Assembly (NCBI GenBank): GCA_905478975.1
Contig: CAJQKW010000074.1
Location: forward strand, 1 to 34,891
From: an uncultured Pseudomonadales bacterium
GTDB lineage: Bacteria; Pseudomonadota; Gammaproteobacteria; Pseudomonadales; Porticoccaceae
DNA length: 34,891 nt
Direction: 5' to 3'
The notes below the pieces were generated by a model. The model had not been told where the DNA came from and searched no databases. It saw only the letters and a program-made list of their open reading frames with translations. Below, piece after piece: positions 4,814-34,891 of the stretch (within the stretch, counting starts at the first letter, position 1; each line of letters opens with the position of its first letter). Both the position numbers and the translations under genes were made by a program.

Positions 4814-4853
4814 TATTCGGTAGCTATTCGGTGGCTCTTTGATAGCTATTCTG
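4814..4853. promoter_or_regulatory. Phased TATTCGG direct repeats between divergent gspE-like gene and argE
   Basis: TATTCGG occurs at 4814 and 4825, and TATTCTG at 4847. The offsets of 11 and 22 bp place all copies on one face of the helix. The last two share the longer word TAGCTATTC. They lie in the 156-bp divergent intergenic region, just upstream of the ATPase gene's ribosome-binding site. This looks like a multi-site regulator target, but no known box (including the ARG box) fits well, so the function is inference. Confidence 0.4.
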
Positions 4854-27960: not shown

Positions 27961-28170
27961 ATGTCGGATAGAGTTTCTGGCACTGTTAAGTGGTTCAACG
28001 ACAGTAAAGGTTTTGGTTTCATCGAGCAAGAAGGCGGCGGTGACGTATTTGTTCACCACAGCGCAATCCAAGCTGATGGTTTCAAATCTCTGAAAGAAGG
28101 CCAAGCGGTAACGATGGAAGTTACTCAAGGTCAGAAAGGCGCTCAAGCTGAGAACGTAGTTGCCGATTAA
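27961..28170 (+). CDS. Cold-shock domain protein (CspA family)
   Basis: A 69-residue single cold-shock domain that binds single-stranded RNA/DNA and melts mRNA structure. RNP1 is KGFGFI (about 16-21) and RNP2 is VFVHHSAI (about 28-35). ATG 27961 follows GAGG by 6 nt; an upstream GTG at 27949 overlaps that site and is unlikely. Length and motifs match CspA/CspD-type proteins, and the long structured leader suggests post-transcriptional control. A perfect terminator follows directly. Confidence 0.95.
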
Positions 28171-28207: not shown

Positions 28208-28239
28208 AAAAACCCGATAAGAAATTATTGGGTTTTTTT
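28208..28239 (+). terminator. Intrinsic terminator after the cold-shock gene
   Basis: A 13-bp stem (28208-28220 with 28225-28237; core CCCGATAA/TTATTGGG with one G-U pair) closes a GAAA tetraloop and is followed by T residues to 28239. Confidence 0.95.
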
Positions 28240-28320
28240 ATGCCTTGAAGAAAGTACCCGGCAAACACAGGACTTACCCGCGCGCTGAGCTCGACTCAAT
28301 AGACTGGCTTCGGCGCACCA

Positions 28321-28467
28321 AAGCGAGAAAGCGCATACTGGGAGCGAGGAAGCTCATACTGGGAGCGAGGAAGCGCATGTAGAAGACAAGTTAGCAAGCG
28401 TTTATGGAGAGTAGGGAAGCGCAAAAAGAGCCAGCGACAAAGCGCACATAGAGAGCAAGAAAGCGCA
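28321..28467. repeat. Array of about 21-bp direct repeats between convergent terminators
   Basis: The heptamer AAGCGCA or a close variant occurs eight times in one orientation at 28321, 28329, 28350, 28371, 28396, 28417, 28440 and 28461. From the second copy on the steps are 21, 21, 25, 21, 23 and 21 bp. The best units, 28323-28343 and 28344-28364, are 21 bp with core GCGAGGAAGCTCATACTGGG and few differences; later units decay. The array lies between the csp terminator and the rpmG terminator, so both flanking transcripts should stop outside it. It is not a CRISPR (no unique spacers of regular size) and not palindromic like REP elements. Confidence 0.85.
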
Positions 28468-28487
28468 CATAAAAAGCCCCAGGCAAA

Positions 28488-28515
28488 AAAAATCCCACCG
28501 AGAGGCGGGATTTTT
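28488..28515. terminator. Terminator after rpmG, bidirectional shape
   Basis: AAAAATCCC (28488-28496) pairs with GGGATTTTT (28507-28515); an inner CC/GG pair extends the stem across an A-C mismatch. It ends the rpmB-rpmG transcript on the minus strand. Confidence 0.88.
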
Positions 28516-34793: not shown

Positions 34794-34856
34794 AATGTTT
34801 TTCACTACTGTTGTTATTAGTCGTCTAGCTCTACTACTGGGTTCTTGGTTACTGAG

Positions 34857-34891
34857 CTCTTTATTGATCTCTTTATTGATCTCTTTATTGA
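34857..34891. repeat. 12-bp tandem repeat at window edge
   Basis: CTCTTTATTGAT occurs at 34857-34868 and 34869-34880, and 11 of its 12 bases again at 34881-34891, where the window ends. The array may continue. It lies 64 nt or more upstream of pyrE on the pyrE promoter side. Confidence 0.9.

Follow-up and report, generated by a model that had tools for sequence, protein, structure and literature searches.

What is the array of short direct repeats that lies between the convergent genes csp and rpmG in a genome of the Porticoccaceae? An initial annotation, made from the letters alone, proposed either a protein-binding array phased on two turns of the DNA helix or a decaying minisatellite, and stated that no standard feature type explains it. 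The window, i.e., the whole stretch of DNA analysed (34,891 nucleotides), belongs to a draft genome (2.24 Mb, 80% complete) of a genus which we take to be the SAR92/HTCC2207 group. Its L33 protein has its closest named relatives in Porticoccaceae metagenome assemblies.

An array between two convergent terminators

The plus-strand gene csp and the minus-strand gene rpmG converge on the array, which is placed between their two intrinsic terminators (Table 1). On the minus strand, rpmG forms a pair with rpmB (encoding L33 and L28) and radC lies beyond. The flanking by two terminators holds as annotated, each being a hairpin with a T-tract; both were seen as inverted repeats, and a simple consensus terminator scanner listed neither. 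A hairpin like the csp terminator is also visible in the spacers of relatives.

Table 1. Features of the csp-rpmG region (window coordinates)
Feature	Position	Strand	Evidence or remark
csp, cold-shock protein gene	27961..28170	+	ORF; Pfam CSD 1.4e-27
csp intrinsic terminator, 13-bp arms, T-tract	28208..28237	+	inverted repeat
Non-repeated spacer stretch, common to four aligned near relatives	28245..28320	.	alignment
First array part	28321..28384	-	period 21; core copies 28323, 28344, 28365
Middle copy, decayed, AAGCGTT word at 28396	28385..28416	-	
Second array part	28417..28471	-	word at 28417; core copies 28434-28446, 28455-28467
Best-preserved extended element (T-rich lead + core), adjoins rpmG terminator	28454..28477	-	profile match
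rpmG intrinsic terminator, 12-bp arms, T-tract on - strand	28488..28515	-	inverted repeat
rpmG, ribosomal protein L33 gene	28533..28700	-	ORF; Pfam Ribosomal_L33 1.2e-18

The eight AAGCGCA-like words on the plus strand (28321, 28329, 28350, 28371, 28396, 28417, 28440 and 28461) and all seven steps between them (8, 21, 21, 25, 21, 23 and 21 bp, in that order) are present exactly as annotated. Their number alone is unexceptional, with six words at one mismatch or fewer against a mean of 2.2 and a maximum of 7 in shuffled sequence. The period of about 21 bp stood up far better: self-matching in the 250-bp interval bounded by the terminators peaks at lag 21 with a run of 35, whereas the best runs of 500 dinucleotide shuffles averaged 8.9 and never exceeded 14, and Tandem Repeats Finder (TRF) reports period 21 twice, at 28322-28378 (2.7 copies, score 100) and 28417-28471 (2.5 copies, score 64). 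A decayed stretch separates these two arrays, and decayed copies are found both in the window and elsewhere. The copies of the first part resemble GCGAGAAAGCGCA on the plus strand, which is equivalent to TGCGCTTTCTCGC in the sense of rpmG; this 13-mer is hereafter called the core. At up to two mismatches it has five matches in the whole window, a number equalled in 3 of 100 shuffles. A coding role was ruled out, as steps of 19, 20 and 23 bp break the frame, and a promoter scan found none.

The spacer across the genus

L33 was found in 42 of the 50 genomes of the genus, and all 42 loci were collected. In 39 of them csp adjoins rpmG in the same convergent arrangement as in the window; no csp was found in the remaining three, where contig ends lie nearby. 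G018 and another contig of G034 each added a spacer at a contig end, giving 44 in total. The core or its complement occurs, with three mismatches at most, in 16 of these 44 csp-rpmG spacers, from 15 genomes, and at that threshold is absent from the other 28. Thirteen of the 16 carrier spacers hold an exact copy, and the number of copies ranges from one to five, with a single copy in G029, G048 and G005. The contig of G018 stops within the array. The two contigs of G034 (C24 and C39; loci L015 and L154) carry two differing csp-rpmG spacers in one assembly, which suggests mixed strains or contamination.

The annotation had called for an alignment of spacers from relatives, and had held that a repeat without any counterpart in close relatives or elsewhere would favour a local slippage event. 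The array is present in relatives and a few near-copies stand at other gene ends. Four near relatives align with the window across the spacer yet differ in copy number: at three mismatches or fewer, G026 has one copy, G041 and G002 have two each, G001 has four and the window five. With one genome per species, this variation is seen between species only. Head-to-tail, near-identical units above chance, together with a copy number that differs among close relatives (between species), are the marks of a variable-number tandem repeat (VNTR), and the "decaying minisatellite" of the annotation is borne out in this respect.

The helical phasing fared differently. Regular runs step by 18 bp in G007, 19 bp in G022, G034 and G046, 20 bp in G017, 21 bp in the window and G002, and 23 bp in G047, while the runs of G001, G018 and G041 are irregular (17-27 bp). 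The steps differ between species and therefore helical phasing is not conserved: the two-turn spacing is specific to the window, and a phased protein-binding array as initially proposed finds no support in the relatives.

Both orientations of the core occur. TGCGCTTTCTCGC lies on the csp strand in eight spacers and on the rpmG strand in seven (the window's clade, G017 and G018). G047 has it in both orientations, with spacer arms of 57 nt that are 86% complementary and 80 nt apart. Orientation is thus single within 15 of the 16 spacers, without the alternation that marks REP/BIME elements. In the window's clade the array adjoins the rpmG terminator. Where the spacer is short, the array occupies all of it and cannot be attributed to either gene; there the rule that the array reads in the sense of the abutting gene fails. 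Most first copies are preceded by a T-rich lead. The two orientations could be explained by an inverted duplication of which one half was later lost, or by an inversion between the two terminators.

The core, its linkers and other loci

A logo over the 16 spacers gives 1.46-2.00 bits per position for the core, 1.33 for position +1, 0.08-0.59 for positions +2 to +12 and 0.07-1.43 upstream, so that the core hardly varies and the linker varies almost freely; the logo takes the best-matching copy per spacer, which flatters the core. Linkers repeat exactly among the intact copies within G046, G007 and G017 and differ between lineages. Spacers were also compared pairwise, in 31 of the 44. Exact-core spacers of the near and far clades (25 pairs) have common words of 14-20 bp (median 15), a median which falls to 6 once the exact cores are masked. 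It is also 6 in the 185 pairs where one or both spacers are without an exact core, the few that reach 13-17 bp doing so through one-mismatch cores.

On a radC tree of 37 genus rows and an outgroup, which leaves out G018 and five genus rows without a single clean radC hit (including the carrier G034), the 13 carriers fall in two deep groups. The carrier state needs four changes (bootstrap range 3-5), compared with a mean of 10.9 after shuffling, and none of 500 shuffles was as low. Because the core is kept across clades, the annotation's suggestion of a sequence-specific element still stands as a hint. The conservation of the core is not what pure neutrality predicts, with the putative constraint resting on perhaps two to four independent lineages; the balance leans somewhat towards constraint.

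The exact 13-mer has 35 matches in 18 of the 50 genus genomes, and its reversed control has none. Twenty-five of these lie in the csp-rpmG spacer, two in other gaps (G007 and G048) and eight within open frames, four of the latter being Tex-like (Pfam was run on the window genome's own copy). The window's genome holds two exact copies, in the array and in its Tex gene, far from the high abundance of REP/BIME elements. A genome-wide signal of the uptake type was likewise rejected, since this genome has seven matches at one mismatch or fewer, four of them within the array. A 25-position profile returned 16 matches at E <0.005, 15 of which are in the csp-rpmG spacer, the other being at lptG of G048; these strong matches include copies used in building the profile, among them the lptG copy, and in each genome 150 candidates were scored from a first-look set of 543 to 1787. 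The best-preserved element of the window scores 22.5 bits (E 2.6e-4) and is itself one of the copies that built the profile.

Other gaps with copies are the lptG end of G048, which has two units of the csp-rpmG type, and a gap between serine-acetyltransferase and class II tRNA-synthetase-like genes in G007. The weaker profile matches include a copy with one mismatch in a convergent gap of G047, and G048 has another gap copy, matching at 15 of 16 positions, that is seemingly isolated. Among 18 loci with one-mismatch 13-mers examined in six relatives, five are in arrays; the rest overlap frames of at least 70 aa, one being 23S rRNA. With up to three mismatches allowed, we count 91 matches to TTTTATRTGCGCTTTCTCG in the genus, compared with 26 for its reversed control. 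About 23 of them are in the csp-rpmG spacer and two in the other gaps already named, which leaves about 66 at further sites, a result that speaks against confinement to a single locus. Eight of these 66 were inspected, six being in open frames and two in gaps, and most of the 66 probably reflect composition. In 62 other genomes of the family, a two-core pattern gave eight matches against four for the reversed control; this pattern demands two intact cores, misses even the window's own array and would overlook lone or decayed copies beyond the genus.

The genus has many short intergenic tandem arrays, and the statement that no standard feature type explains this one was too strong. In 400 kb of G048, TRF reports ten arrays with a score of at least 48 and a period of at most 24 outside heuristic ORFs, and the window's score of 100 is that of the best among them. 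As a control gap, the convergent pair formed by a NUDIX (mutT-like) gene and yacG, array-bearing in G048, was taken from 30 of 45 yacG genomes (L329-L358). TRF arrays are present in 8 of the 30 loci with several unrelated units: one is common to G048, G029 and G047, and others occur in G026, G002, G023, G003 and G022. The two genes overlap in 13 of the 30 loci, so this gap serves as a control chiefly for the near clade. At the lptG end, the position of the G048 copies is taken in the sister genome G029 by a tandem array of another kind, and G047 has none. The G029 array (L299), between the stop codon and the terminator downstream of lptG, consists of about five copies of a unit of about 16 bp.

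Nature of the array and possible role of its core

The array belongs with intergenic minisatellites. Because near relatives align across the spacer yet differ in copy number, we read it as a VNTR between the terminators of convergent genes, which has likely grown by slippage from a single ancestral element. That element would have comprised a T-rich lead followed by TGCGCTTTCTCGC, about 20-23 bp together, and this seed was probably a short element under constraint. Growth would have proceeded by local tandem duplication, through replication slippage or template switching, in the interval between the terminators, where selection is presumably weak, and the extra copies are likely to be neutral slippage products. 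The single-copy core may be under weak constraint, or may formerly have been, in that it "does, or did, something" at transcript ends. Its likeliest role would be that of a sequence-specific site there, either bound by a protein or acting as RNA that backs up termination. The interpretation in the initial annotation is partly supported overall.

The MIRU loci of mycobacteria and other bacterial intergenic VNTRs are similar to the array in having head-to-tail intergenic copies, the number of which differs between relatives. However, MIRU units are longer than the unit of the array (steps of 17-27 bp), and the array is mainly found at one locus per genome, with a core that crosses species and linkers that do not. 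Iteron-type phased binding arrays also have direct repeats near two helical turns, as in the window, but the 17-27 bp steps between species do not keep such a spacing. REP/BIME elements share with the array an extragenic position near gene 3′ ends and clusters of variable length; in contrast, the array lacks a clear palindrome, keeps to one orientation in nearly all spacers and occupies few loci, compared with over 100 copies. One account describes MIRUs as minisatellites of variable copy number (PMC3635867), and another credits REPs with helping Rho-dependent termination and BIME-2 with binding gyrase (PMC2817692). Among open-licence papers, none with the 21-mer of the array and none on Porticoccaceae with "tandem repeat" were found, only general relatives.

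The strongest alternative is a purely neutral minisatellite, in which no part has a job and the core is shared by descent or by transfer between species. This is plausible, if somewhat short of an even chance: it would fit the patchy presence of the core, the wide distribution of intergenic arrays with unrelated units and the decayed copies of the window, but it sits poorly with the long words common to two clades whose spacers otherwise share about 6 bp, and the shared mutT-yacG unit, in an admittedly limited control, does not extend beyond G048, G029 and G047. A near-invariant core among freer linkers, found mostly at this convergent gap with few copies in others, is what would be expected if a DNA-binding protein sat on the cores and formed a roadblock or insulator separating the two convergent genes, both probably expressed at a high level. 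Such an array is nevertheless unlikely, given that its spacing is unphased between species, that G029, G048 and G005 have a single copy in this spacer and that most relatives do without the core; we know of no binding motif that the core matches. We consider it improbable that the array backs up termination at the RNA level, by a pyrimidine-rich RNA on one strand that would disfavour a stable RNA-DNA hybrid or offer a loading site to Rho. The T-rich lead ahead of most first copies and the long-spacer arrays in the rpmG sense, which adjoin the rpmG terminator, agree with this model, whereas the gap-filling arrays of short spacers cannot be attributed to either gene, the lptG copies of G048 are antisense to lptG and the core is not strongly richer in C than in G. 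Moreover, the RNA of neither strand folds better than its shuffles in the interval between the terminators (z 0.17 and -0.14); the whole-spacer value (z -3.49) includes both terminators, and Rfam gave no hit at gathering score, which does not suggest a structured RNA. The copies in other gaps of G048, G007 and, with one mismatch, G047 would also be expected of a low-copy mobile or REP-like element inserted beside terminators, but the few loci per genome and the unit without clear palindrome make this highly improbable. Phage origin was rejected, with no phage match and 30 viral stretches of one 15-mer each (not inspected singly), i.e., single hits only in viral contigs, as was a plasmid link, the two plasmid hits covering the terminator hairpin only.

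A further reading concerns the 5′ end of 23S rRNA. The 15-mer AAGCGAGNAAGCGCA has 25 matches in 17 of the 50 genomes. N is A or G in 13 of them, all csp-rpmG copies, and T in the other 12; among the latter, 11 are 23S rRNA 5′ ends and the one in G006 is not. The likeness was noted at loci L186 (from 1495 onward), L359-L361, L366-L369, L373, L374, L377 and L381, and Rfam LSU gives the 23S identity for one locus. Core and flanks of the window's unit match the 23S 5′ end at 17 of 18 bases, and the unit of the far-clade G005 does equally well. Compared with 200 random 60-mers, none was as good in 10 of 11 spacers and one was in G001; this test used a single preselected target rather than the whole genome, and the likeness was spotted after the fact. 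In 400 kb, chance gives two likenesses at 15 of 16 for the spacer of G048, and none at 17 of 18 for those of the window or G005. The split of AAGCGAGNAAGCGCA between arrays and rRNA and the agreement in two distant clades could thus point to a core that derives from, or mimics, the start of 23S rRNA. This is very improbable in our estimate, as no intact array copy has the T of the rRNA at N, the T-rich lead has no 23S counterpart, the exact 13-mer also occurs in Tex genes and equal likeness at up to 16 bp arises by chance. The likeness is an unproved lead, the boldest reading and not the best, and may be due to chance.

More broadly, and rather doubtfully, the core could be a genus-specific candidate site recognised by an undescribed factor, with slippage setting its dosage from zero to five copies in either or both orientations; in the boldest form the site would mimic the 23S 5′ end, and a factor reading young 23S rRNA would also read the array beside two ribosomal-protein genes. 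Should the core be functional, array length would be tied to the control of convergent transcription, and perhaps to rRNA, in a largely uncultured marine group. In either case the spacers form a natural series of a short element between convergent terminators, from zero to five copies and in both orientations with the same flanking genes. If the core has no function, the array documents the ready growth of tandem repeats at gene ends in this genus.

Such growth may account for contig breaks, including the one in the array of G018. The end of the window's own contig falls in a 12-bp tandem repeat (TTATTGATCTCT, 3.6 copies, 34849-34891), which is perhaps the cause of the assembly break there. 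The window has a second intergenic tandem array at 4814-4851, with 3.5 imperfect copies of period 11 (TATTCGGTAGC). Long intergenic tandem repeats with periods of 251, 158 and 186 bp are found in G048 (L319 8446-9123, L328 2852-3401 and L320 17629-18022, respectively), those of L319 and L320 having a "TTTGGACGCCGAAGGCG" stretch in common. Downstream of lptG, several relatives (L303, L305 and L306) carry a dispersed-looking repeat (GAGATCCCTCGTCGC...GGGATGACA), and in G001 (L306) a run of AACCCTA repeats, resembling plant-type telomere repeats, occurs in a bacterial contig.
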